Assembly (NCBI GenBank): GCA_003990705.1
Contig: AP018318.1
Coordinates: forward strand, 4,343,501 to 4,407,500
Length of the DNA stretch: 64,000 nucleotides
Direction: 5' to 3'
Source: Nostoc sp. HK-01
Lineage (GTDB): Bacteria > Cyanobacteriota > Cyanobacteriia > Cyanobacteriales > Nostocaceae
The notes beneath the pieces were generated by a model. It did no database searches. It was not told where the DNA came from and saw only the letters and a list, made by a program, of their open reading frames with translations. Numbering within the stretch: the stretch's first letter is position 1; each line of letters begins with the position of its first letter. Both the position numbers and the translations under genes were made by a program. Positions 14,591 through 34,151 of the stretch are shown piece after piece.

Positions 14591-16318
14591 TTACCTTCTT
14601 CGCCACCAAATGAAAGCTGCCGTTAAAAAGCCAAGCAGAGGTAATACCAATAAAGATGACAATGTTAATACATTGGCTTGTGATGTTGATAAAGTAATTC
14701 GACGGTTTTTCGGTTCTTTGGGGCGAATAGAAAGGGGTTGCTGGTCTTGTTGACTCAGCCAGGTAACAGAGTTGAGAAATACATCACCATTTAGTTGCTG
14801 TTGAAATACTCCATCGGTAGCAAAATCCGAATTTCCAAAAACTACTAACCGTGATTCTTTTGGAGATTGTTCAGATTTCTCTTCTGTTGCGGGAGTAGTC
14901 GCTGGTGAAGGTAAAGAAGTAGTGGTAGCTGTAGGAGTGGAAGTTGCTGGAGATGTCGTAACTGTGGGAGTGGGAGTTGCTTGATTTTGCGTTGTTGTGG
15001 GAGTGGTTAAAGGCGAAGGAGTTGTCGCTGCTGTCGGAGTAGGAATAGGGTTAGATGTAGCTGGCAATTTTCTTGTTAACGCTACACCTAAAGTCAGCGG
15101 CCCTTTGAGGTCTTTATCAGGATTGAATTCTAATTTTTCGCTTTGCAGGTCGCTTTCAGCCCAGCTATTGGGATAGGCTTTGGTTTGCAGTAGGGGTGTG
15201 GACTGGATACCAGCAACGGAGGTAATTTCTATTGGTCTAGCCAAGCGATAAAAAGAAATATTTTTGCCAAAATCTTTGGTAATTGGGTGTTGTCCGTAGT
15301 CTGTGATGATGGGTGCTGCGGGGCCAAGTCCCACACCTGCACCGGAGACATCAACGGCTAAACGATTATCGAGGCGTACACCCCACTCTTGTAATAAAGG
15401 GCTGAGTTTGGGGTCAGTATCAGGATCAATCATCAGCAGCAAGTTACCGCCACGATTGAGATAATTTTGTAAGGCTTTTACCTCTGCGTCGAATAGTCCG
15501 CGTTTAGCACCTGCTACCACTACAGCCGCAGCATCGTTAGGAACTTGCAGTTTGTCAGCTAAATTTAGTGGTTCAACGGTGTAACCTTTTTCGGTTAATC
15601 CTTGCACAGCCTGAGAAATTCCACTTTCGCCACCAGTCAGGGGATGTTCACCGTGACCTTGAAGGAAGTAAGCTTTAACAACGGTGGAATTAGTAAGTTG
15701 CTGTAGTCGATTCGTTAATTTAATTTCTGATAGGCGTTCATTGACGTTCAATGATTGTACTAATTGGCGTTTATTTCCAGATTCTAAATAAACTTCTCCA
15801 TATTCTTTCACCCCAAATTTTTCGGCGATTCCGGGTCGGCTTTGAGGGTCAACATATTCAAATTGAAACTTAGAACTTTGCCGTTGATAGTTTTCTAGTA
15901 ATTCTCTATCTTGAGGATTTTGATTAGTGTCAAATACCCAAATTTTCACAGATTGTGGTAGACGACGGACTAATTCTTGTGATTGGGGTGCTAGGGTAAA
16001 TAACTGAGTTTCGGTTAAATCTTGGCGTAGTTGATAGCGAACACCTAAAAAGTTAATTAACCCTAAAATTACCAAGATAGCTAATGTGGCAACAACCGCA
16101 TTAGTTCCAGCTTGGGTAGAACGACTAGCCCACCAACGGCTTTGCTGGCTTTGCCAAACTACCCAAAATATAATAACGGCAATTCCAGGAATCATAAAAG
16201 CTAGAGGTAATAGTCCCCAGCTACCAGATACTAACCCTGCTGTGAAGCCGACCATGAATAGAAACGGCCCCAGCCAAAATAAATATTTCCAAGGTTGCTT
16301 TTTTGTGATTTTTTTCAT
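14591..16318 (-). CDS. GldG-family ABC transporter auxiliary protein
   Basis: 575 residues. Two or three N-terminal membrane segments (about 12-55 and 77-97) and one at the C-terminus (about 545-568, followed by WWRRR) bracket a large extracytoplasmic domain. Motifs YQLRQDLTETQLFTLAPQSQ, AYFLQGHGEHPL and GGNLLLMIDPDTDP are typical of GldG/DUF4350-like proteins. A Thr/Pro/Ala-rich low-complexity stretch of roughly 60 residues (about 425-485) interrupts the domain and looks expanded. Operon position between permease and DUF4340. GldG in Bacteroidetes supports gliding; in cyanobacteria the role is unknown, with export of surface material a guess. Confidence 0.88.
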   Translation of the reverse strand: MKKITKKQPWKYLFWLGPFLFMVGFTAGLVSGSWGLLPLAFMIPGIAVIIFWVVWQSQQSRWWASRSTQAGTNAVVATLAILVILGLINFLGVRYQLRQDLTETQLFTLAPQSQELVRRLPQSVKIWVFDTNQNPQDRELLENYQRQSSKFQFEYVDPQSRPGIAEKFGVKEYGEVYLESGNKRQLVQSLNVNERLSEIKLTNRLQQLTNSTVVKAYFLQGHGEHPLTGGESGISQAVQGLTEKGYTVEPLNLADKLQVPNDAAAVVVAGAKRGLFDAEVKALQNYLNRGGNLLLMIDPDTDPKLSPLLQEWGVRLDNRLAVDVSGAGVGLGPAAPIITDYGQHPITKDFGKNISFYRLARPIEITSVAGIQSTPLLQTKAYPNSWAESDLQSEKLEFNPDKDLKGPLTLGVALTRKLPATSNPIPTPTAATTPSPLTTPTTTQNQATPTPTVTTSPATSTPTATTTSLPSPATTPATEEKSEQSPKESRLVVFGNSDFATDGVFQQQLNGDVFLNSVTWLSQQDQQPLSIRPKEPKNRRITLSTSQANVLTLSSLLVLPLLGFLTAAFIWWRRR

Positions 16319-23176: not shown

Positions 23177-23860
23177 TTAAGGATAACGAAAATCTTTAAT
23201 TTCTAAAGGAGAAGGCGGCGCAGAAAGTACGACGATATTTCTAATATTGCTAATATAACGTCCTCCTGCTCTATCACCAGGAACTACTAAACGAGCAAAT
23301 CCTTCATCTGTCAGCAGTTGCACTGTACCATCATTAGCTTTTTTCGCAAATGCAACCAGCACAGATTTATTTTCAAAGTTGGGATGAATTTCGCCAACAG
23401 CTACAACTGCTCCATAACAATCTGTAGCCTCAACTAAAATGTATTGGCGAAGAAAAGCATTTTTGGTATTTTGTCCAGGATTACGAGGTTCTAGTCCACC
23501 ACCAGCTTTTTCATTGTTAATTAAATCCCATAAAGGAACGCCATAGTATGTTTCAGTTCTGGGGCCTGAGCCTGTTTGAAAGCTAACAGTGATTTCTGTA
23601 ACTGTTGATGGGTTTTGGGTTTTTACAGCATCTCGTAACTCTGTGAGTTTTTGGAGTGTAAAAGTCCTGGGATGATTAATTTCTCCACTTAAACGAAACT
23701 TTTCTAAGAATCCACCTGCACATTTATTTTTTGCCCACGGAGCAGGTGTTTCTTGTTTTCTCCAAGGTAGAATATTTCCTGGTTCAGCTAAGGTTGGTTG
23801 CCAAAATCCTAGCATAGACAGTATTAAAGATACGCTGGCTATATGGCGCGTAAAATACAT
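23177..23860 (-). CDS. Periplasmic molybdopterin-binding oxidoreductase-family protein
   Basis: 227 residues. Signal peptide (about 1-25, SVSLILSMLGFWQPTLAE), then a sulfite-oxidase-type molybdopterin-binding fold: FRLSGEINHPRTFTLQKLTE, TYYGVPLWDLINN, YILVEATDCYGAVVAVGEIH and FARLVVPGDRAGGRYISNIR. The last motifs are conserved in the small stand-alone family. A cysteine (TDCYG) is near the place of the molybdenum ligand, but small members often lack activity. Three copies or half-copies of the TACCAA palindrome lie 155-317 bases upstream, so it is a probable member of the molybdenum-status regulon. Enzymatic role or metal binding is unproven. Confidence 0.8.
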   Translation of the reverse strand: MYFTRHIASVSLILSMLGFWQPTLAEPGNILPWRKQETPAPWAKNKCAGGFLEKFRLSGEINHPRTFTLQKLTELRDAVKTQNPSTVTEITVSFQTGSGPRTETYYGVPLWDLINNEKAGGGLEPRNPGQNTKNAFLRQYILVEATDCYGAVVAVGEIHPNFENKSVLVAFAKKANDGTVQLLTDEGFARLVVPGDRAGGRYISNIRNIVVLSAPPSPLEIKDFRYP

Positions 23861-24014: not shown

Positions 24015-24031
24015 TACCAACTTTATTGGTT
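24015..24031. promoter_or_regulatory. TACCAA-N5-TTGGTT operator
   Basis: TACCAACTTTATTGGTT, an exact 17-base match to the site at 32199-32215 before the SLH porin. It lies 155 bases upstream of the molybdopterin-family gene. Confidence 0.7.
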
Positions 24032-24033
24032 TT

Positions 24034-24050
24034 GATCAAGATAGTTGGTA
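24034..24050. promoter_or_regulatory. Degenerate copy of the TTGGTA operator
   Basis: GATCAAGATAGTTGGTA: one perfect arm (TTGGTA) and 4 of 6 in the other, two bases from the site at 24015. Two adjacent sites could allow cooperative binding. Confidence 0.45.
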
Positions 24051-24160
24051 ATTAAGTTGTAAAAAAATTAAGAGGCGTAGACTTCTTGGCTTATTTAGAG
24101 AAATCAGACATTTTATTATATAAATATTGCTGTTTATATACAGCAAGTATTAGGTTATAA

Positions 24161-24177
24161 ATCCAAATTTGTTGGTA
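24161..24177. promoter_or_regulatory. Degenerate copy of the TTGGTA operator
   Basis: ATCCAAATTTGTTGGTA: inner CCAA/TTGG conserved, one full arm. Lies just beyond the stop of the HsdR-N-like gene and about 300 bases upstream of the molybdopterin-family gene. Confidence 0.45.
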
Positions 24178-24187
24178 ACTTAAAATC

Positions 24188-25117
24188 TTATGGTACAGTG
24201 CAAAAATGATAACGCAGTAATTTTTTACTGTAACTAACGCCATCTTCCTCAAACACTATAGAATGTTTAATTATTTCTAGAAAGCGTCGTTTATCAAAAA
24301 TACCTTGGATTAGCACATCTATTTCTGTTTCTTGTGGATGGGTAAAGTCTTCACCATCTATTGTGTACCAAGGTAAAAACTCTGTTGATTTACAAGTTAA
24401 TGTACCTAAGTTGGCTCGATTGCCAGAAGTAACTACTAGAAAGACATTATAAAAAAACAATTTTGGAATATTTTGAATATATTTATGCAAGGTATCTTGA
24501 TTATTTTTCAAGATGTTTATTGCAGATGCTTTCTGATTATATAAGATTGCCAAAGGTAAGCCGTTAATAAAAATAACTGCATCTAACTGGTGAGTTTGAT
24601 GATTTGCAACAATGGTAAATGGATGAACTACCAACCAATCATTGTTAAGCAAGTTAGCAGCATCTATTAACCAGACTTTTTCGCTAATTATTTGATTATT
24701 AATTATGTATGTAATATCAATTCCTTGAGTTAATAATTTATGCAAGTACAGGTTATTTTCAAGTAAGTTTTGTTTGGGTAAAGCAGTCAACTGACGGATA
24801 GTTGATTGAAGTGCTGCTGATGAGATATGCGGATTGATTCTCAGTAAGGCATGACGCAGGCGATCGCCTAAAATAACTTCAGTCTCATTATTACGTTCTG
24901 TCGGATGTCTACCAGCGGCGATATCTGCTTCTAGTTCTACTGTGTAGCCAATAACTTCAAACCAAGTCAGCCAAGAGTCTACAGCAATGGATGGGTTAAA
25001 ATTTCTGTAGAGATGATGTTTTTTAGCCAAGTTAGTTGCTTGGGCAATTGTTCTACTGGACTTGATAGGATGATTGGGACTCAAAGACTTGATTTTGAGT
25101 CTATGGCATGTTTTCAC
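24188..25117 (-). CDS. HsdR N-terminal-domain-like protein lacking the ExK catalytic pair
   Basis: 309 residues from a GTG at 25117. The layout follows the N-terminal nuclease region of type I restriction HsdR subunits: WFEVIGYTV, TERNNETEVILGDRLRHAL, ALLRINPHISSAALQSTIRQ, VHPFTIVANHQTHQLDAVIF. The key site reads LDAVIFINGLPLAILYNQK, where active enzymes have GLPLxVIELK: Asp179 is kept but Glu is Tyr193 and Lys is Gln195. No helicase domain and no HsdM/S follow. It is probably a catalytically dead DNA-binding or structural protein. It follows nifN on the same strand but has a perfect TACCAA palindrome at 25205 before it, so it belongs to the same regulon. Confidence 0.7.
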   Translation of the reverse strand: MKTCHRLKIKSLSPNHPIKSSRTIAQATNLAKKHHLYRNFNPSIAVDSWLTWFEVIGYTVELEADIAAGRHPTERNNETEVILGDRLRHALLRINPHISSAALQSTIRQLTALPKQNLLENNLYLHKLLTQGIDITYIINNQIISEKVWLIDAANLLNNDWLVVHPFTIVANHQTHQLDAVIFINGLPLAILYNQKASAINILKNNQDTLHKYIQNIPKLFFYNVFLVVTSGNRANLGTLTCKSTEFLPWYTIDGEDFTHPQETEIDVLIQGIFDKRRFLEIIKHSIVFEEDGVSYSKKLLRYHFCTVP

Positions 25118-25204
25118 ATTGCTTACTAAGATTGGTTGATATATTTTCCCTAATCAGCATCAAAGCTGAAATTGACCACTCAAACTGTATCAATTGCATC
25201 TTTT

Positions 25205-25221
25205 TACCAAATAAGTTGGTA
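25205..25221. promoter_or_regulatory. Perfect TACCAA-N5-TTGGTA operator before the HsdR-N-like gene
   Basis: TACCAAATAAGTTGGTA with both 6-base arms intact. It lies in the 127-base gap between nifN and the HsdR-N-like gene, 88 bases upstream of the latter's start. Confidence 0.75.
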
Positions 25222-25244
25222 AATTTATAGGATTTGTGAGATGA

Positions 25245-26531
25245 TTAGTCTTGGAAAAATAAGTTAGCAATATCCAACAATAGCTGCTTAGTACCTTGAT
25301 AGCCAACTTTAGTCGACAGCGCATGACCTAAGCGGTCAAAAATCGGGATTCCTTGACGATAGAGAGGAATATTCAGTCGTTTAGAGATTGTTGTTGTATA
25401 TGAATTAGCAATCAGCAAGTCAGAACCAACCGCCATCTGTTCAAAATCTTCTAAGTCGCCAATAGTCACACAGGGAATTGTTAGTTTTTCCAGCACAGGA
25501 GAACGCGTTGTTGTGACAGCTGTATGAATATGCACACCCATCGACTGTAAAAAAGTGACGATAGACAAAAGCAAGTCTGGTTCGAGTGCGACAGAAACTC
25601 GTTTACCACCAAAGTAAGTGTGAGTATGCAGCATCAAATCTTGCAGTTGACGGCGTTGGCGGCGATATTTCTCTGGGACATTATGACCGCTAATATCTGC
25701 CAAGGCTTGCAGAAATCTATCTGTAGCACCTAACCCTGTTAATTCACTAAAAACTTCATAAGGGATGTTAAATCGCTGTTCTAAAATTTTGGCTGCACCA
25801 CGCATACTCTCACCCAAAGCTAAAGTGAAGACAGAATGACCGATTTGTTGTAATTCTGCCAATGTTGTACCACTGCCTGTGATGCCACTGTAATTATGAT
25901 CCCACTGACTATCTAGTAAACCAGAAAGATCAGGGATAGCGATCGCCTGTAAGCCAAAAGCCGCAATTATTTCTTTTACCTGTTCGATATCGGCTGGTGT
26001 AAATGCAGAACTCGCCAACACAACAACTTGCTGGAAATAACAGCCGCCACTATTTTGGGGGATTTCCTTAACTATACTTTCTACGACTGCGGCAAAGCCA
26101 TCTTGCAAAGTACCTTTAAAATCAGGCGTAGAGACTAAGACAATTGGTAAATTATCCAATTCTGGGTAACGGTGGCGAATATCTTTAGTCAAACGTCGCA
26201 AATCATCGCCTTTAGTTTCCGTTAATCCCGTGGTACATAAACCGAGAATTTCTGGTTGATATCTCTGCACCATCTGTAAAATTGCCTGTTCAACTTTATC
26301 CTCATCTCCCATAATGGTAGAGACTTCTGTCATCGCCGTACTAGAAAGCGGAATCGCCTTACGCAAATGCTGTGTTAGAGGAGATTTAGTAAAGGCACTG
26401 CAACCAGGTGAACCATGTAATAAAGGCAGCATCCCTTTTAAGCCTAAGAATGCTAAGGTTGCACCGATGGCTTGACTTTGTTTAAGAGGATTGACTGTAA
26501 CAGATGTATTCGTAACGCTCACAATTGCCAT
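25245..26531 (-). CDS. nifN: Nitrogenase cofactor scaffold NifN/VnfN
   Basis: 428 residues. With NifE it forms the heterotetramer on which the FeMo/FeV cofactor precursor matures before transfer to apo-nitrogenase. It follows Azotobacter NifN closely: VNPLKQSQAIGATLAFLGLK, PLLHGSPGCSAF with Cys44 (same number as the NifN ligand of the O-cluster), STAMTEVSTIMGDED, LCTTGLTETKGDDL, VSTPDFKGTLQDGFAA and RYRRQRRQLQD-like KYRRQRRQLQDLMLHTHTYF. Length is normal. It starts 52 bases after nifE. Sequence alone cannot separate nifN from vnfN; the nearby molybdenum-sensing genes favour the alternative system. Confidence 0.9.
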   Translation of the reverse strand: MAIVSVTNTSVTVNPLKQSQAIGATLAFLGLKGMLPLLHGSPGCSAFTKSPLTQHLRKAIPLSSTAMTEVSTIMGDEDKVEQAILQMVQRYQPEILGLCTTGLTETKGDDLRRLTKDIRHRYPELDNLPIVLVSTPDFKGTLQDGFAAVVESIVKEIPQNSGGCYFQQVVVLASSAFTPADIEQVKEIIAAFGLQAIAIPDLSGLLDSQWDHNYSGITGSGTTLAELQQIGHSVFTLALGESMRGAAKILEQRFNIPYEVFSELTGLGATDRFLQALADISGHNVPEKYRRQRRQLQDLMLHTHTYFGGKRVSVALEPDLLLSIVTFLQSMGVHIHTAVTTTRSPVLEKLTIPCVTIGDLEDFEQMAVGSDLLIANSYTTTISKRLNIPLYRQGIPIFDRLGHALSTKVGYQGTKQLLLDIANLFFQD

Positions 26532-26583
26532 AATTTAAGTACGGGAGAATTTTATGAATGAGGATTGATGCCAAGAGGTAATT

Positions 26584-27927
26584 TCATTCAATCTCCTCCC
26601 AAGGTGCAGATTTGCGTACTTGTTGCCAAACGGGACTGTAGATAGTTGTGTAGATTTCTCGTGCGGCGGCTAAAACTCCTGCGTAGCCTGCGTAAAGTTC
26701 TGAGTTAATGTTGAGGAAAGGAATTTTGGCTTGGAAGGAGAGAGATTTTAGGCGATCGCTTGCTATTAATAAATCAACTTGATTTTCATTAATTATTGGA
26801 ATAATCTCTTCCAGTCTCTCATTTGCCAAAACTACTTCATCCCTATCAAGCCATTGTTTCAGTCTATTTTTATCCTCTTGATTCAATTTTCTACAACTAA
26901 TTGGAATTACTTGCATTCCTAAATTATTTGCAGATTCAATCATTATCCAACTACCAAAATCAGTAATATCAATAATTACGGTTTTATCTTGTAGTTGTAA
27001 TTTATAGAAATTCAGGTTTTCTGATAAATTATTAACTTCTTCGTTGATTAGCTTTTCTGTTTTTTCTTCTAGTTCATGGCTGCCTAATTTTGTGGCAATA
27101 CTTTTCAAAAGCTGAGTTATATCATCTACACCATACAGTGGTACTTCAATGTATGGTATATCAAATTTATGCTGCATCTTTTTGACAAAATTTAACATTA
27201 TCTGTGAAGGAATCAGCACATTCAACTTGGCACGATGGGCATAACAAATTTCTTTGTAGTGACTATTCGCTGTAATTTTGGCTAAAACTCTAATACCTAA
27301 TTTTTCTAGTAATGGCAAAATGTTACTAACTGCACCTGCCATATTATATTCACTAATAATATTGATATCATAAGGTGTAGTAAACTCTGGTTCGGCTGTA
27401 CCAATTACGTGTTCTATTAAAGTTTCACCAGCCAGACGAATACCCAAGTTTTTCCGACCAGCAAAACCAGGAGAATCTACAGGGATAATTGGTATCCCTA
27501 TTTGTTCATAAGCATCTTTACAGGCTCCATGAATATCATCGCCAATCAGAGCAGAAACACAAGTAGAATAGACAAATACAGCACTAGGCTGGTAGCGTCT
27601 AACTAGCTGTATAATAGCTTTTTGTAATTTTTTAGCACCACCAAAAATAATGTCGCTTTCCTCCATATCAGTGGTAAAGCGAATTTTGTGCAGCCTAAAG
27701 TCAGATGATAAATTGCTGTTATTTCCCCAAGCATTATTTATACAACCACTTGGCCCATGAATTAAATGTGCAGCATCAATAATAGGTACAAGAGTCAACA
27801 TTGCCCCATCAAAAGCACAATCTTCATGAGCATCTAACGCTGAAGGTACCTGCATACCAAATCTATCTTCATTATCTGGCATTGAATTATGAGGATTTCT
27901 GCTGGTATTTTCTTGATTAATTTTCAT
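26584..27927 (-). CDS. nifE: Nitrogenase cofactor scaffold NifE/VnfE
   Basis: 447 residues. Cofactor-maturation partner of NifN. The three O-cluster cysteines are present: Cys37 (HEDCAFDGA), Cys62 (LIHGPSGC) and Cys123 (FVYSTCVSALIGDD). Further NifE motifs: IRFTTDMEESDIIFGGAKKL, IPVDSPGFAGRKNLG, TTPYDINIISEYN. The C-terminus keeps YAGYAGVLAAAREI and VWQQVRKSAPW. A somewhat shorter and more divergent C-terminal half than housekeeping NifE suggests a secondary or vanadium-type copy. Its 324-base upstream gap separates it from the iron-protein gene and may hold its own promoter. Confidence 0.9.
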   Translation of the reverse strand: MKINQENTSRNPHNSMPDNEDRFGMQVPSALDAHEDCAFDGAMLTLVPIIDAAHLIHGPSGCINNAWGNNSNLSSDFRLHKIRFTTDMEESDIIFGGAKKLQKAIIQLVRRYQPSAVFVYSTCVSALIGDDIHGACKDAYEQIGIPIIPVDSPGFAGRKNLGIRLAGETLIEHVIGTAEPEFTTPYDINIISEYNMAGAVSNILPLLEKLGIRVLAKITANSHYKEICYAHRAKLNVLIPSQIMLNFVKKMQHKFDIPYIEVPLYGVDDITQLLKSIATKLGSHELEEKTEKLINEEVNNLSENLNFYKLQLQDKTVIIDITDFGSWIMIESANNLGMQVIPISCRKLNQEDKNRLKQWLDRDEVVLANERLEEIIPIINENQVDLLIASDRLKSLSFQAKIPFLNINSELYAGYAGVLAAAREIYTTIYSPVWQQVRKSAPWEEIE

Positions 27928-28252
27928 GGTTTGTGATTAGAAGGTAATATTTTTGAATGGAATCTCAAAAACTCATTTCATCTGTGTGTCTTGAAGCGAG
28001 ATAAAGAAAGAATGGGAAAAATAACATTCCCATTCCCTCAAAAAATAGACAACCAACCAAGTAGAGAAAGAGAAAAACTAAAATACTAATTCCACATTAA
28101 AAATCTGAGAAATTGCGGTAAAAATGGTAAAGCAAAAACTTCCAAAACAATAGATCAGCTATGAGAATACCTCCGAATTTCGATAGATGAATGATTGAGG
28201 GTAGAGTGGGCTATTTTCGCCCACTCAATGCTGACTAGGTAACTAACAAGCT
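27928..28252. other. Gap between nifE and nifH-type genes
   Basis: 325 AT-rich bases. Besides the stem-loop at 28204-28226 I see no ORF and no TACCAA palindrome, so nifE expression either depends on read-through from nifH or on a promoter I cannot recognise. Confidence 0.5.
28204..28226. terminator. Stem-loop after the nitrogenase iron-protein gene
   Basis: GAGTGGGC (28204-28211) and GCCCACTC (28219-28226) form a perfect 8-bp GC-rich stem 27 bases downstream of the nifH-type stop. No U-tract follows on the minus strand (TACCCTC), so it fits an mRNA 3'-stabilising or processing hairpin, as known downstream of nifH, more than full termination. Confidence 0.65.
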
Positions 28253-29404
<1,152 letters not shown>

Positions 29405-29467
29405 TTACCCTAGGGTAGGAGGAAATTTTACCCTTCCTACCTACTCCCTATTTCCCTATTCCCCAGC

Positions 29468-30658
29468 CTAAACAGTTGCTACAACTTCCCCAATTTTGCT
29501 AATGTCGTAGCCACCGAGAACTTCTAATTGTGAGTGAACCATCCGATGTCCCAAGGTACTCAGCAATTGTTGGATTGGTGATTCTTCTAGATATTCCTTA
29601 AGAATTACTAAGTCATATCGTGACTGATGTAGTGGGATAAATCCTAAGCCAAAGGTTGCAGCGACGGACGCTGTACTAATACCTGCATCGGCTGATCCTA
29701 AGACAACAGCTTGGGCAACATCTTGATGGCTGTGAACGATATGTTCAAATCCTTTGACAGCATCAAATGGTATATGTGCCTCTTGCAGTTTGCGTTCCAA
29801 CAGCATCCGACTACCCGCACCAGTTTCTCGATTGATAATTGTTGCTTTGGCTTTGACTAAATCGGATAGTGTTTCCCAACCTTTAGGATTACCAGATGGT
29901 ACTAATAATCCTTCTTCCCATAAACCAAGGGTAATGAGAACTGCTGATTTTCCCGCTAAAACTTCTCGCACAAACGGAACATTATGTTCACCTGTTTTTG
30001 GATCATACAGGTGCATCCCTGCAATGTGCGCTTCACCTCTGCATAGACTGTGTAATGCAGCCATGCTGTTAGCAAAGGTAAAATGTACTCGTAATTGCGG
30101 ATGCCAACGTTCGGTAGCCCTTGCCCAAAGCGAGATTACAGGCGCACAGCCAGCAATTACAACAGTATTGTGTAGCGCTTCGAGATTATCATCCAAAAGC
30201 CTGACTTTGACTGTATTTGCATCTATGTGCTTTTCTGCTTCCTCCTCCGGATTCGACAGTTTGCTTATGCCGGGGAACCCGTCCACCGCAACTGTCTCAC
30301 CATCCGCAGGAATCATATCTTGACGGAATGCTTCTTTTCCCACTAAAGGATAAGCTATCCATTGTCCACCAACTCTAGCGAGACTAACTCGCAAAGGTTG
30401 ATTAATTGTGACAGGTTTAGCGAGAATTGCTTCAATTTCAGGTAAATCCTGCTCTAACCAGAATAGATCCTCAACTTGACAGCCAAGTGCTTTCGCTAAT
30501 TTTAGTGTGATGGCGACAGAAGGAGCATATTGTCCCGACTCTACACCACTAATAGTTTGACGAGTGACACCAGCAATGTTGGCTAAATCTTGCTGGCTCA
30601 TTCCTAAGCGGGTTCTGATTGACTTCAAGTTATTCCGGAGGTCGCTATCCTGCTTCAT
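29468..30658 (-). CDS. XRE-type repressor with molybdate-like binding domain
   Basis: 396 residues. HTH of the XRE/Cro type at about 8-62 (TRLGMSQQDLANIAGVTRQT, ISGVESGQYAPSVAITLKLA). A middle linker domain covers about 70-155. A periplasmic-binding-protein-like domain (PF12727/COG1910 type) covers about 160-390: VIAGCAPVISLWARATERWH, CRGEAHIAGMHLYDP, INRETGAGSRMLLERKL, SADAGISTASVAATFGLGF. That domain is related to molybdate-binding proteins, so the protein should sense molybdate or a similar oxyanion. A perfect TACCAA-N5-TTGGTA lies in its upstream region, as expected for autoregulation. Functionally it resembles the dual repressors described for vanadium nitrogenase genes in Anabaena variabilis; orthology is not established. 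Confidence 0.85.
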   Translation of the reverse strand: MKQDSDLRNNLKSIRTRLGMSQQDLANIAGVTRQTISGVESGQYAPSVAITLKLAKALGCQVEDLFWLEQDLPEIEAILAKPVTINQPLRVSLARVGGQWIAYPLVGKEAFRQDMIPADGETVAVDGFPGISKLSNPEEEAEKHIDANTVKVRLLDDNLEALHNTVVIAGCAPVISLWARATERWHPQLRVHFTFANSMAALHSLCRGEAHIAGMHLYDPKTGEHNVPFVREVLAGKSAVLITLGLWEEGLLVPSGNPKGWETLSDLVKAKATIINRETGAGSRMLLERKLQEAHIPFDAVKGFEHIVHSHQDVAQAVVLGSADAGISTASVAATFGLGFIPLHQSRYDLVILKEYLEESPIQQLLSTLGHRMVHSQLEVLGGYDISKIGEVVATV

Positions 30659-31099
30659 TGGCTTCCTTTTTTCTCAACTTTACAAAGCCGTAGCGGATTT
30701 ACCTGTATCTGTGCTTGCAAAAGGTTTGCTTTGTCTTTTGCCTTGCCCTTTCTTTTCCCTCTACAGAAAGAATAACATACATCTTGCTAGTTTTCTTGCC
30801 AAAAAATCAAAAATATTTGCGCTAAGTTTGTTTTACCTGCTTTTTTTTGGCAGTAGCAATGAGAAAAATGCTTCTATATATAAGGGTTGGCGCTTTAGTT
30901 AACTTCTAGGTTTATACCAAAATAGTTGGTAAAAGTGGCGATCGCTACAGTTTTTATAGTTAGTTTCGGTTTTGATGCTTTTTAGGCAGGTAATCTCGCT
31001 AGTGAAGAACATACCAACCAACATTGTTGTTGGGATAAAGTATTGACTACTAAATATCCCTCACAACAAAAGCTTTTCCTGCAAGATTTTAGAGGCAAT
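30659..31099. other. Divergent promoter region of the repressor and the 119-residue gene
   Basis: About 440 bases, AT-rich, with the operator at 30915-30931 and a half-site TACCAA at 31012-31017 within an imperfect palindrome CCAAC..GTTGG (31014-31033). A TTG-initiated extension of the 119-residue gene would begin at 31043. No other ORF is supported. Confidence 0.55.
30915..30931. promoter_or_regulatory. Perfect TACCAA-N5-TTGGTA operator in the repressor promoter region
   Basis: TACCAAAATAGTTGGTA with both arms intact, 257 bases upstream of the repressor start and about 170 bases upstream of the divergent 119-residue gene, so it could control either or both. Confidence 0.75.
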
Positions 31100-31459
31100 A
31101 TGATTACCGAAGAAGATTTAGCACAGCAATTTGCGACTATTGTTGAACACACTCATCCCAGTGCATGGGAAGTAATTCGCCATTGTTACGTAAAAGTTAT
31201 TAACCCCCAGTTCACATATCTACATCCTACATACTTCCATAAACGATATGTGAGCATTTACTGTCCTGAGAAACTGATGGCTGCTGTACTCACGCAAAAA
31301 AACTTACTCAGAGAAGTCGCACAGTATTTGGGACTAATTGAAGTTGTCTGCTTAAATGCTACCAACTTAGTTCGTGATCCTATGTCTCAACTTAAGCGAA
31401 CTCATCCCCAATTATGGTTAGACTTATTATGGATTCTCTCAGCCAAACATGAAAATTAG
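31100..31459 (+). CDS. Unknown 119-residue protein of the molybdenum-status block
   Basis: From the ATG at 31100 with GAGG four bases before it; a TTG at 31043 would give 138 residues without a good ribosome site. The protein is soluble and aromatic-rich: THPSAWEVIRHCYVKVINPQ, YLHPTYFHKRYVSIYCPEK, VAQYLGLIEVVCLNATNLV, THPQLWLDLLWIL. Three His, three Cys and several Tyr are spread over the chain without a classical metal motif. I do not recognise a family. Its location opposite the molybdate-type repressor, with the operator between, suggests a regulon member. Confidence 0.6.
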   Translation: MITEEDLAQQFATIVEHTHPSAWEVIRHCYVKVINPQFTYLHPTYFHKRYVSIYCPEKLMAAVLTQKNLLREVAQYLGLIEVVCLNATNLVRDPMSQLKRTHPQLWLDLLWILSAKHEN

Positions 31460-31535
31460 CTAATTGCCAGTAGTAGAAGATAAGTTTTTGAGTTGGCTCG
31501 CTGACTTTCACTGACTTCTAGAATAGTGTAAAAAT

Positions 31536-31578
31536 TTAATATAACAAATGGCTACTATACAGCCATTTGTTATATTAA
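31536..31578. terminator. Perfect 18-bp inverted repeat between convergent genes
   Basis: Arms 31536-31553 (TTAATATAACAAATGGCT) and 31561-31578 pair over all 18 bases around a 7-base loop. It sits between the 119-residue gene and the convergent mop gene, with A- and T-rich ends on both sides, so it can terminate transcription in both directions. Confidence 0.8.
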
Positions 31579-31597
31579 TCCACTAATCAACAATGAC

Positions 31598-31807
31598 TTA
31601 ATCGATAGCGATCATGACATCAGTAGCTTTAATGATTGCATAAACTTCCTTGCCCTCAGATAGTTTTAGATTGTCTGCTGATGATTTAGTAATGATTGCA
31701 GTTACTTCTACCCCATTAGCAATTTCTATTGTTACTTCAGTATTGACACTACCAATTTCAACTTTTTTGACTGTTCCTTTTAAGCCGTTACGTGCGCTAA
31801 TTTGCAT
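31598..31807 (-). CDS. mop: Molbindin (single Mop domain)
   Basis: 69 residues, one Mop/TOBE domain: MQISARNGLKGTVKKVEIGS, VNTEVTIEIANGVEVTAIIT, KSSADNLKLSEGKEVYAIIK, ATDVMIAID. Molbindins form hexamers that bind several molybdate (or tungstate) ions and buffer them in the cytoplasm. Spaced purine-rich leader (GGGGG, 9 bases) before the ATG. A degenerate operator copy lies 153 bases upstream. Located between the molybdate-type repressor and an SLH porin, it anchors the reading of this block as molybdenum-responsive. Confidence 0.9.
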   Translation of the reverse strand: MQISARNGLKGTVKKVEIGSVNTEVTIEIANGVEVTAIITKSSADNLKLSEGKEVYAIIKATDVMIAID

Positions 31808-31959
31808 ATTAAGTTGCCCCCTGGTTCAGTATTATTAACAGTTTCAATATAACATTTACTATTTTTAAAATTGAAGAATATCAAATTCAACACAGTTTTT
31901 TTATTATTTGTTTATATTTATTCTGTGTCAAAAAAAGATTACCAACTATACTAAAAATT

Positions 31960-31976
31960 TATTAATAAAGTTGGTA
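31960..31976. promoter_or_regulatory. Operator copy upstream of mop
   Basis: TATTAATAAAGTTGGTA: one perfect arm, 4 of 6 in the other, with the same CTTTA core (reverse strand) as the porin and molybdopterin-family sites. Confidence 0.5.
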
Positions 31977-32000
31977 TTTTAGCAGTAAGATATTCTATGT

Positions 32001-32114
32001 ACTTACCCTAAGTTCAACGAGCGCTAATTCAAGAACACCCTATGTTATGAGTTTTGCATCTAGCGTAATTGCCTCCTCAATCGGTTAAGAGGTAGGACTC
32101 ATAACAGGGTAAGT
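32001..32114. other. Nested inverted-repeat element (possible structured RNA)
   Basis: ACTTACCCT (32001-32009) pairs with AGGGTAAGT (32106-32114). TGTTATGAGT (32043-32052) pairs with ACTCATAACA (32097-32106). Inside, CCTC/GAGG closes a loop AATCGGTTAA. The stems nest, giving a three-stem fold. It lies upstream of the porin operator and upstream of mop on the other strand. Part of it looks like a tRNA D-arm plus a CTCATAA anticodon loop, but no anticodon stem or T-arm exists. Function unknown. Confidence 0.4.
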
Positions 32115-32198
32115 ATTTTCCTACTTTTGTTGTCAACATTTCCACACAACTGAAGCTGACAAACTTTTAAACTGATCTTAACCATGATAAACTAGCTT

Positions 32199-32215
32199 TA
32201 CCAACTTTATTGGTT
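32199..32215 (+). promoter_or_regulatory. TACCAA-N5-TTGGTT operator before the SLH porin
   Basis: TACCAACTTTATTGGTT, identical to 24015-24031, 53 bases before the porin start. A -10-like TAATAT follows at 32244, so bound repressor would cover the -35 region. Confidence 0.75.
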
Positions 32216-32267
32216 AGTATATGCTTTTACTAACCTACGAGTGTAATATATATCAGGTGTGAGGAGC

Positions 32268-34151
32268 ATGAGTAGTATTTTCCGCAGTGCAGTATGGATA
32301 ACTCCAATACTGCTGATTGCTAGTGTCGTTACAAGTAAAAAAGTGCTGGCAAATCCTGTTGAATCCAATATAAATATACAAGCAGAAAGTATCAATTTAA
32401 TCCAATCACAACAAACTCTGACTGCTCAAACAGAGATTAAACCGAAAAAAAATAATGTATTAGAATTAACATTAGCAGATGATAATTTTGATACAATGTC
32501 TCAAGTAACATCCGTATCGCAACTATCAGATGTGCAACCTACAGACTGGGCATTCCAAGCTCTACAATCTTTAGTTGAGAGATATGGGTGTATTGCAGGT
32601 TATCCCAACAGTACATATCGTGGTAGTCGCGCCATGACGCGATATGAATTTGCAGCTGGGTTAAATGCTTGCTTAGAAAGAATTAATGAGCTAATTGCCA
32701 CAAGTACAGCCGATGCTGTTAAAAAAGAAGACTTAGAAACCTTACAAAAACTGCAACAAGAATTTGCTGATGGTTTAGTAGAGTTGCGCGGTAGAATCGA
32801 CCCACTAGAAGCACGTACCGCCGAACTAGAAGCAAATCAATTTTCCACCACAACCAAATTATCAGGGGATGTAATTGTCACCTTTGGGGGTGTATATGGT
32901 GATGAAAAAGCGCTCACTTCTGATGCGTGGCGGACTATAAATAATACACCGGGTGGAAATAGAGCCGCCAGAGAAGCCACCGCCTATAGAAGTGCTGGTG
33001 GGCGTGACTTGGAAGACAATACAATATTGGCTGACCGAGTACGAATAATATTGGATTCGAGTTTTTCTGGCCAAGACCGCTTGCGCGTGATATTGAGAGC
33101 AAATAATACTTTGGCATTCAACGCGACAAATCAAGTCTCTGGAACAAATATGACTCGTTTGGCTTGGGATACAACTCTTGAACCAGACAACAGTATTGGA
33201 GTAGCCAAGTTATTCTATAACTTCCCGGTTGGGGATAAGTTGAATGTGACGGTTGACGCAATTGGTGGTTCGTTTTTCGATAACTTCAACACAGTGAACC
33301 CGCTGTTCTCTGCTGCTACAACTGGTGCTATTTCGCGGTTTGGTCGTTTTGCACCAATTTATCGCGCTAGTAACTCTGGACTGGCGGTTGGTAGAGGTTC
33401 TGGTATTAGTGCTATTTTCAAGCTGAGTGATGCTATTACCTTCTCAGGTGGTTATATAGCTAGAAATGCCGAAAATCCTCTTGATGGTAGAGGTTTGTTT
33501 GATGGTAGTTATGGTGCGTTAGGACAAGTAGCGTTTCAACCAAATAAAAACTTGACTCTGGCTTTCACTTACGCCCATTCTTACTTTAGTGCTGTTGATG
33601 GTAATGGAGTTGCAACTGGTGATGTGAATGTCTCTGGTTCGGAAGGAAGTACCTTTGCAAATAATCCTTTTGGTACAACTGCAATTCCAATTGCTACATC
33701 AGCCAATCACTACGGTATTCAAAGTAGTTATAAGTTGAGCGATAAATTCATCTTATCTGGTTGGGTGGGTTATACACAGGCGATCGCCGAAACAAATTCT
33801 GGCAGAAATCCCGTGACTAACACAGTTAATAGAGGGGATAAAGCAGACATTTGGAACTGGGCTGTCACTTTAGGGTTTCCCGATTTGGGTAAAAAAGGTA
33901 ATGTCGGTGGAATTATCTTTGGTCAACCGCCGAAGGTGACAAGTAATGATTATGGGGCGCAGACTCTCACCGCCACAAGTGCGCGTCGGGAAGATAGCGA
34001 TACTTCATATCATCTAGAAGCTTTGTATCGTTATCAGGTGAACAGTAATATCTCAATTACACCAGGATTGATTGTGCTTTTTAACCCTGAACACAATAGC
34101 AACAACGACACCATCTATGTCGGTACTATTCGGACAACCTTCCGTTTCTAG
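32268..34151 (+). CDS. SLH-OprB outer-membrane porin of the molybdenum-status block
   Basis: 627 residues from the ATG at 32268 (a GTG three codons upstream is possible; AGGAG overlaps that extension). Signal peptide (SSIFRSAVWITPILLIASVV), SLH domain (about 90-150, LSDVQPTDWAFQALQSLVER, AMTRYEFAAGLNACLER), coiled coil (DLETLQKLQQEFADGLVELR) and OprB barrel ending FRTTFRF. Same architecture as the porin at 19197, but its promoter carries the operator. I infer an inducible outer-membrane route for a metal or oxyanion such as vanadate or molybdate; the substrate is not shown by sequence. Confidence 0.9.
   Translation: MSSIFRSAVWITPILLIASVVTSKKVLANPVESNINIQAESINLIQSQQTLTAQTEIKPKKNNVLELTLADDNFDTMSQVTSVSQLSDVQPTDWAFQALQSLVERYGCIAGYPNSTYRGSRAMTRYEFAAGLNACLERINELIATSTADAVKKEDLETLQKLQQEFADGLVELRGRIDPLEARTAELEANQFSTTTKLSGDVIVTFGGVYGDEKALTSDAWRTINNTPGGNRAAREATAYRSAGGRDLEDNTILADRVRIILDSSFSGQDRLRVILRANNTLAFNATNQVSGTNMTRLAWDTTLEPDNSIGVAKLFYNFPVGDKLNVTVDAIGGSFFDNFNTVNPLFSAATTGAISRFGRFAPIYRASNSGLAVGRGSGISAIFKLSDAITFSGGYIARNAENPLDGRGLFDGSYGALGQVAFQPNKNLTLAFTYAHSYFSAVDGNGVATGDVNVSGSEGSTFANNPFGTTAIPIATSANHYGIQSSYKLSDKFILSGWVGYTQAIAETNSGRNPVTNTVNRGDKADIWNWAVTLGFPDLGKKGNVGGIIFGQPPKVTSNDYGAQTLTATSARREDSDTSYHLEALYRYQVNSNISITPGLIVLFNPEHNSNNDTIYVGTIRTTFRF

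Follow-up and report, generated by a model that had tools for sequence, protein, structure and literature searches.

What is the function of the palindrome TACCAA-N5-TTGGTW, and which protein recognises it? The question is raised by a 64,000-nucleotide stretch of the Nostoc sp. HK-01 genome (contig AP018318.1, positions 4,343,501–4,407,500; hereafter the window), in which this motif recurs within 8 kb around vnfR2, a gene for a regulator of the type that controls V-nitrogenase genes. Comparison of the window, the whole genome and related genomes indicates that TACCAA-N5-TTGGTA is, in all likelihood, the operator of a molybdate-responsive repressor encoded elsewhere, a protein with a ribbon-helix-helix (RHH)-like N-terminus and one C-terminal TOBE/Mop domain, here called RHH-TOBE.

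Exact copies of the motif in the window are found only at 24015, 25205, 30915 and 32199. The sites at 25205 and 30915 are perfect palindromes and so match on both strands, giving six strand-hits, compared with a mean of 0.02 and a maximum of 2 in 100 dinucleotide shuffles. A preliminary description of this DNA had reported the same four two-armed sites in 24015–32215 and the identity of two of them over 17 bases, and both statements are correct: 24015–24031 and 32199–32215 read TACCAACTTTATTGGTT. Its statement that there is no second arm elsewhere in the window is true of exact arms and fails at one site with a single mismatch, at 15265 within an open reading frame (ORF). With up to two mismatches allowed, there are 16 sites in the window vs. 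3.8 expected. The whole genome (7.52 Mb) has 10 distinct sites, four of them in the 8-kb block. Of the six others, three are inside ORFs and three are intergenic, at genes for anion or molybdenum (Mo) uptake, which is not the random scatter that would have spoken against a regulon. The sites on which the argument turns, with the gene of the proposed repressor, are:

24015–24031, minus strand: operator before the 23177–23860 gene, an exact motif match.
25205–25221, both strands: perfect operator 88 bp upstream of the HSDR_N gene, an exact match.
30915–30931, both strands: perfect operator between vnfR2 and the divergent orf31043, assigned to orf31043, an exact match.
32199–32215, plus strand: operator 43 bp before the porin gene (GTG at 32259), an exact match and aligned in relatives.
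C1:3369160–3369606: RHH-TOBE gene, divergent from modA and about 1 million bases from the block in the window, with an operator at C1:3369612.

The motif was also counted in 80 related loci, the best 80 of 138 loci around VnfR relatives, kept from named contigs. There were 75 sites in these loci, whereas 20 simulated sets averaged 0.35. The 5-base spacer accounts for 59 perfect deduplicated sites, 55 of them intergenic, while each other spacer length from 0 to 15 gives 0–4 sites. Palindromes with permuted arms (59 versions) average 0.3 sites; one reaches 16, all coding. The arms are constant among relatives and the spacer letters vary. Fixed arms around a variable spacer, together with the spacer and arm controls, are most simply explained by a protein-binding palindrome.

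The RHH-TOBE gene was counted as present in 183 of the 217 genomes of the family. Sixty of its upstream regions were compared, 40 from genomes with no VnfR match (E ≤ 1e-60) and 20 from genomes with one, and a site was called present if at least 11 of the 12 arm bases matched. The palindrome is at −22, exactly 5 bp before the ATG, in 41 of the 60 regions (25 of the 40 VnfR-less and 16 of the 20 VnfR-positive genomes). In the VnfR-less genomes one more is at −30 and three are at −33, for a total of 29 of 40 within 33 bp of the RHH-TOBE start. In a sample of the phylum, 48 of 292 genomes had RHH-TOBE matches at E ≤ 1e-12, many to the Mop half only. Five distant full-length copies (47–53% identity, from other families or another order) all have the site 5–7 bp before the ATG, four with 12/12 arm bases and one with 11/12; this comparison covers five loci, with the distant match G224 set aside. 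Additional half-sites accompany the palindrome: a TACCA-type half-site starts 19 or 20 bp before it 11 times in 45 RHH-TOBE regions, and TTGGTA starts at −53 to −56 from the gene start 35 times in the 60 regions. The start of a divergent modA is found in 39 of the 60, including genome G211, whose layout we judge to match the one published for Anabaena variabilis.

The density of perfect sites in the 217 genomes follows the same gene, with 0.71 per Mb in genomes with both RHH-TOBE and VnfR (n = 99), 0.49 with RHH-TOBE only (n = 84), 0.22 with VnfR only (n = 17) and 0.32 with neither (n = 17). Presence of RHH-TOBE, defined here as E < 1e-25, gives a rate ratio of 1.97 (z 4.7), though the genomes are related to one another and the counts include coding background, so this is a weak test.

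The targets are coherent as well. Among 121 sources there were 105 deduplicated sites, 88 intergenic and 17 coding. The recurrent downstream genes include orf31043 (23) and vnfR (22), which largely share the same divergent sites; SBP_bac_11 ModA-like binding proteins (21 sites in 13 loci); OprB/SLH porins (17 sites in 11 loci); HSDR_N-domain proteins (17 loci); a mop group of 13, including 11 matches to mop; DUF7219 (6); and the 23177–23860 gene (3). The remaining target genes were seen once each. Of the three intergenic sites outside the window in the Nostoc sp. HK-01 genome, one lies between the RHH-TOBE gene and modA (TIGR01256, 237 bits); another precedes a ModA-like binding protein by 30 bp, and the third a TauE/SafE permease by 281 bp. 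In four VnfR-less genomes of the same genus (G157, G158, G162 and G164), 8 of 20 annotated site places are at regulon genes: three at RHH-TOBE/modA, two at TauE, and one each at a binding protein, a porin and DUF7219. Ten of the other 12 are coding or unrelated, and two precede a gene that we take to be ilvD, without a recognised binding protein. The site places of two further genomes, G017 and G026, were left out of this annotation.

The preliminary description had regarded the palindrome as the mark of a molybdenum-status regulon. The targets modA, ModA-like binding proteins, porin, mop and TauE/SafE bear this out, and support its interpretation as the operator of a molybdenum-status or uptake regulon of nitrogen-fixing cyanobacteria, with DUF7219, HSDR_N and orf31043 as further predicted members. 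The sites, the selection for one spacer, the coherence of the targets and the tie to the RHH-TOBE gene are direct observations.

An A. variabilis-like genome has two perfect operators (L135:6811 and 6950) in the space that separates a porin from an SBP_bac_11 binding protein. In two VnfR-less relatives (L273 and L285) the operator is doubled, with copies 54 or 55 bp apart.

The RHH-TOBE protein has 149 residues, with an RHH-like N-terminus of 45 residues and a single TOBE stretch at residues 84–144. The C-terminal TOBE/Mop domain was identified by TIGR00638 (71 bits), and TOBE was found in all 17 members tested; its profile matches the PDB structures of ModE and of Mop/ModG (1gug, E 1.7e-14; 1h9j, E 1.5e-30). 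The ModE chains align only from profile position 68 onward. In ModE of Escherichia coli the N-terminus is a winged helix, TOBE is present as two repeats, and the operator is different. In the RHH-TOBE protein there was no winged-helix N-terminus and one TOBE stretch instead of two repeats. Three Nostoc plasmids match only the 44-residue N-terminal part of the protein.

The genes and minor sites of the 8-kb block are as follows:

23177–23860, minus strand: operator-target gene, with an operator in front in three sources.
24044–24050, minus strand: extra half-site TACCAAC, just upstream of a −35-like hexamer, from the alignment of relatives.
24188–25117, minus strand: HSDR_N-domain protein, by domain match, a recurrent operator target.
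28253–29293, minus strand: vnfH-type nitrogenase reductase, downstream of vnfR2, by family matches.
29468–30658, minus strand: vnfR2-type regulator, HTH_3 + PBP_like, by domain matches.
30774–30802, minus strand: promoter-like match TTGGCA-17-TATGTT before vnfR2, in a conserved block termed B, more than 110 bp from the operator.
31100–31459, plus strand: orf31043, a small conserved protein with a conserved start at ATG 31100 (the mechanical ORF begins at 31043).
31598–31807, minus strand: mop, a TOBE/molybdenum-pterin binding protein, by family matches.
31940–31976, minus strand: half-sites upstream of mop, from the alignment of relatives.
32259–34151, plus strand: OprB/SLH porin, by domain matches, also a target in a VnfR-less genome.

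The half-site at 24044–24050 starts 19 bp from the half-site of the palindrome that has the same orientation, and is kept in both aligned relatives (L023 and L026). Upstream of mop, the TACCAA and TTGGTA of 31940–31946 and 31970–31976 are kept in all three aligned relatives (L023, L024 and L027). Of the degenerate copies proposed earlier, those at 24034 and 31960 thus survive as these half-sites; the one at 24161 was rejected as a true copy, being unconserved in two aligned relatives. The 23177–23860 protein had no significant match in Pfam or NCBIfam, and its earlier label, molybdopterin family, seems plausible. The orf31043 protein matched no known family in domain and family profile searches. 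A search of the window found no exact palindrome in front of the vnfH-type gene.

The position of the sites suggests how they may act. At 24015 the operator occupies the whole spacer of a promoter-like match (−35 TTGATC at 24039–24034, −10 TATTAT at 24016–24011) and overlaps its −10. There is also a promoter-like match before mop, TTGACA-17-AATAAT at 31931–31903. Overlap of operators with promoter and start regions suggests repression. Physical binding, molybdenum as the ligand and repression itself we infer from these patterns. When there is enough intracellular molybdenum, the TOBE domain would bind molybdate and the RHH-TOBE protein would occupy the palindromes, perhaps helped by the extra half-sites. 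The bound protein would cover promoter or start regions and shut off its own gene, modA, the ModA-like binding proteins and the outer-membrane porin, along with linked genes such as those for the HSDR_N protein and orf31043. Exhaustion of molybdenum would release the whole set, while VnfR2 would serve as a second, separate molybdenum sensor, for the vnf genes. In A. variabilis, a molybdenum transport gene is repressed by molybdenum and tungstate, and vnfH by molybdenum and not by tungstate; the authors infer two regulators, and propose that molybdenum transport is controlled by a modE homolog adjacent to modA (excerpts of PMC4284476).

A number of observations weigh against RHH-TOBE as the reader of the palindrome, or against its role as a repressor. 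Fourteen of the 60 RHH-TOBE upstream regions have no site at the threshold of at least 11/12, and one more has a site only at −229. In eight of these 14 (seven in genus g18 and one in a VnfR-positive genome), the usual position is taken by a TACTAA- or TACTCA-like / TTAGTA variant. Of the five RHH-TOBE copies situated about 10 kb or less from VnfR genes, four (L055, L057, L073 and L076) lack the site. Presence of VnfR also raises the number of sites in the 217 genomes (rate ratio 1.32, z 3.6); linked target genes can explain this effect, and need not. The N-terminus is the less certain half of the protein: RHH_1 matched weakly in 8 of 17 members (best E 0.0023), the unrelated zf-CRD model was weakly matched by 10 of 17 (best E 0.036), and a profile search gave no PDB match of the N-terminus to any RHH protein. 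One copy, modelled as a monomer, gave a poor structure (pLDDT 47) with two helices, 15–28 and 32–48, at the positions expected of RHH helices. The region has no more promoter-like matches than chance would give (21 found vs. 25.8 in shuffles), so the overlap of 24015 with a −10 is suggestive only, and the mop half-sites are upstream of the −35-like hexamer and do not cover it.

In genus g18 (L230, L235–L238, L246 and L247) the operator at the RHH-TOBE start has changed towards the TACTAA- or TACTCA-like / TTAGTA form, while there is little difference in the protein's first 48 residues.

The preliminary description had named as binder the XRE/molybdate-type protein of 29468–30658. By its HTH_3 and PBP_like domains, and as the neighbour of vnfH, this protein is a VnfR. 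As a molybdenum-dependent repressor, VnfR2 might bind the palindrome and regulate itself and its neighbours. Its gene adjoins the sites, a site is about 225–330 bp upstream of vnfR in 22 cases, and VnfR-positive genomes have somewhat more sites; VnfR1 and VnfR2 are molybdenum-dependent repressors in A. variabilis, according to excerpts of PMC4284476. The distribution of the site argues otherwise. The site is not lost where VnfR is absent, as the VnfR-less genomes described above show, and its conservation there before RHH-TOBE and uptake genes makes VnfR2 an unlikely binder.

The upstream regions of vnfR lead to the same result. Of the 80 related loci, seven had too little upstream sequence and were dropped. 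The palindrome, at least 11/12, was present upstream of vnfR in all 28 loci with a divergent orf31043 and in 7 of the 45 without. Since the palindrome tracks the divergent gene, the 30915 site is assigned to orf31043 and not to vnfR2; the earlier description of this site as standing before the repressor and its divergent neighbour holds for the neighbour and not for the repressor gene, and autoregulation of vnfR through 30915 was rejected. In the seven exceptions, hsdRN is divergent in L065, and RHH-TOBE has the same orientation as vnfR in L073 and L076; no regulon-type neighbour was found in that space in the other four (L029, L042, L047 and L062).

A set of 20 genomes, in which several gene starts are approximate, gave a weak test of the two regulators. 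VnfR-positive genomes with no RHH-TOBE match had no site of at least 10/12 upstream of vnfR (0 of 7, G213 being left out of eight; divergent genes are outside this comparison), and the site was likewise missing there in the eight with only a Mop-like match and the one with a middling match (G189), but also in three of the four with a clear RHH-TOBE match, one of which has it. Perfect sites within about 1.5 kb of vnfD were found in 0 of 22 loci, with three at 11/12. Genome G211 has no site of at least 10/12 arm bases upstream of its ava4025-like gene, vnfR1 or vnfR2. VnfR1 is reported to bind the promoter region of ava4025 (ava4025-vnfDG) in A. variabilis (excerpts of PMC4284476); judged by G211, that region lacks the palindrome, a comparison made at the level of the region and not of the bound sequence. 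With sites persisting in VnfR-less genomes and no perfect copy near vnfD, VnfR2 was rejected as the binder. The proposal is very probably wrong, and we give it little credence.

Still less likely is joint reading, in which RHH-TOBE is the main reader and VnfR2 also touches the palindrome at shared promoters. This would accommodate the residual effect of VnfR in the genome-level count, and block B before vnfR contains a 17-base TAGCAA...TGYTA element loosely like the palindrome; that element differs at the third arm base, the block overlaps the promoter-like match before vnfR, and nothing at the level of sites shows dependence on VnfR. Equally improbable is control by an unrelated regulator, or a DNA repeat, with RHH-TOBE as one more target: regulators can be controlled by others and binding by RHH-TOBE is a prediction, but the site keeps its place ahead of the RHH-TOBE start in copies with as little as 47% identity, the protein has a molybdate-type TOBE domain and the targets are molybdenum uptake genes, and the signal is intergenic and specific in spacer and arms, which is not repeat-like.

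RHH-TOBE thus remains the preferred reader, and it can be compared with known systems. Like ModE, it would sense molybdate by a TOBE/Mop domain and control molybdate transport genes, here with a divergent modA; it differs in its RHH-like N-terminus, its one TOBE domain and the operator TACCAA-N5-TTGGTA. Mop and ModG (1gug and 1h9j), which align well with its TOBE part, are not known to have a DNA-binding domain. NikR is an RHH DNA-binding arm fused to a ligand-sensing domain, with a palindromic operator and autoregulation; RHH-TOBE would resemble it in these respects and differs in the ligand domain, which in NikR is ACT-like and binds nickel. VnfR1 and VnfR2 of A. variabilis would share molybdenum-dependent repression in related organisms and differ in having HTH_3 and PBP_like domains, no TOBE match, and a reported target, the ava4025-vnfDG promoter region, in which no palindrome was found.

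Control of molybdenum transport by a modE homolog in A. variabilis is already published (excerpts of PMC4284476). A literature search did not find this operator or an RHH-TOBE molybdate regulator named, though Pratte 2013 and Zahalak 2004 may describe sites. What appears to be new, within that search, is the operator sequence, its owner, the broader regulon, and an N-terminus that resembles RHH and not a winged helix. On balance we favour the view that RHH-TOBE fusions form a distinct class of cyanobacterial molybdenum sensor, with a DNA-binding part unrelated to that of ModE; that the regulon takes in the complete uptake chain, beginning with a molybdate porin in the outer membrane and ending with periplasmic binding proteins; that this is the second of two independent molybdenum sensors, beside VnfR; and that HSDR_N, orf31043 and DUF7219 belong to molybdenum-starvation physiology. 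The operator would allow the molybdate regulon to be recognised in heterocyst-forming cyanobacteria by a sequence rule, and names a probable sensor set apart from the V-nitrogenase repressor VnfR. It also predicts an outer-membrane route for molybdate, marks several uncharacterised genes as candidate molybdenum-starvation genes, and turns the published inference of two sensors, drawn from their differing response to tungstate, into a testable two-operator model.

The region 25245–30658 is a vnfR2-vnfH-nifE-like-nifN island. No protein in this genome exceeded the VNFD cut-off, and by these profile matches the island lacks the V-nitrogenase structural gene vnfD. In the family, VnfR was found in 116 of 217 genomes and VNFD over the cut-off in 22. 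Among the large loci, seven that contain vnfD, vup or VnfR genes (L133, L134, L136, L137, L139, L140 and L142) have no perfect site in 135 kb, and four at 11/12, three of them coding. In an eighth locus with a vnfD copy, L144, two perfect sites lie several kb past vnfD, and one of the two precedes a porin gene by 54 bp. In the same genomes, other loci, those around vnfR2 (L135, L138, L141 and L143), also hold perfect sites. V-nitrogenase neighbourhoods are therefore not palindrome-free, while the surroundings of vnfD itself have no perfect copy.

Block B, conserved around TAGCAAnnTGTATGnTA, precedes many vnfR genes and, in G211, the ava4025-like gene as well. It lies at 30774–30802 in the window, at about 11757 in L133 and at about 11330 in L134. 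As a lead only, it is a candidate for a VnfR site or a core promoter. The genome also has a NifD (TIGR01282, 776 bits; L022:8797–10101) on its 485-kb contig C2, with an IS5 transposase about 3 kb away.

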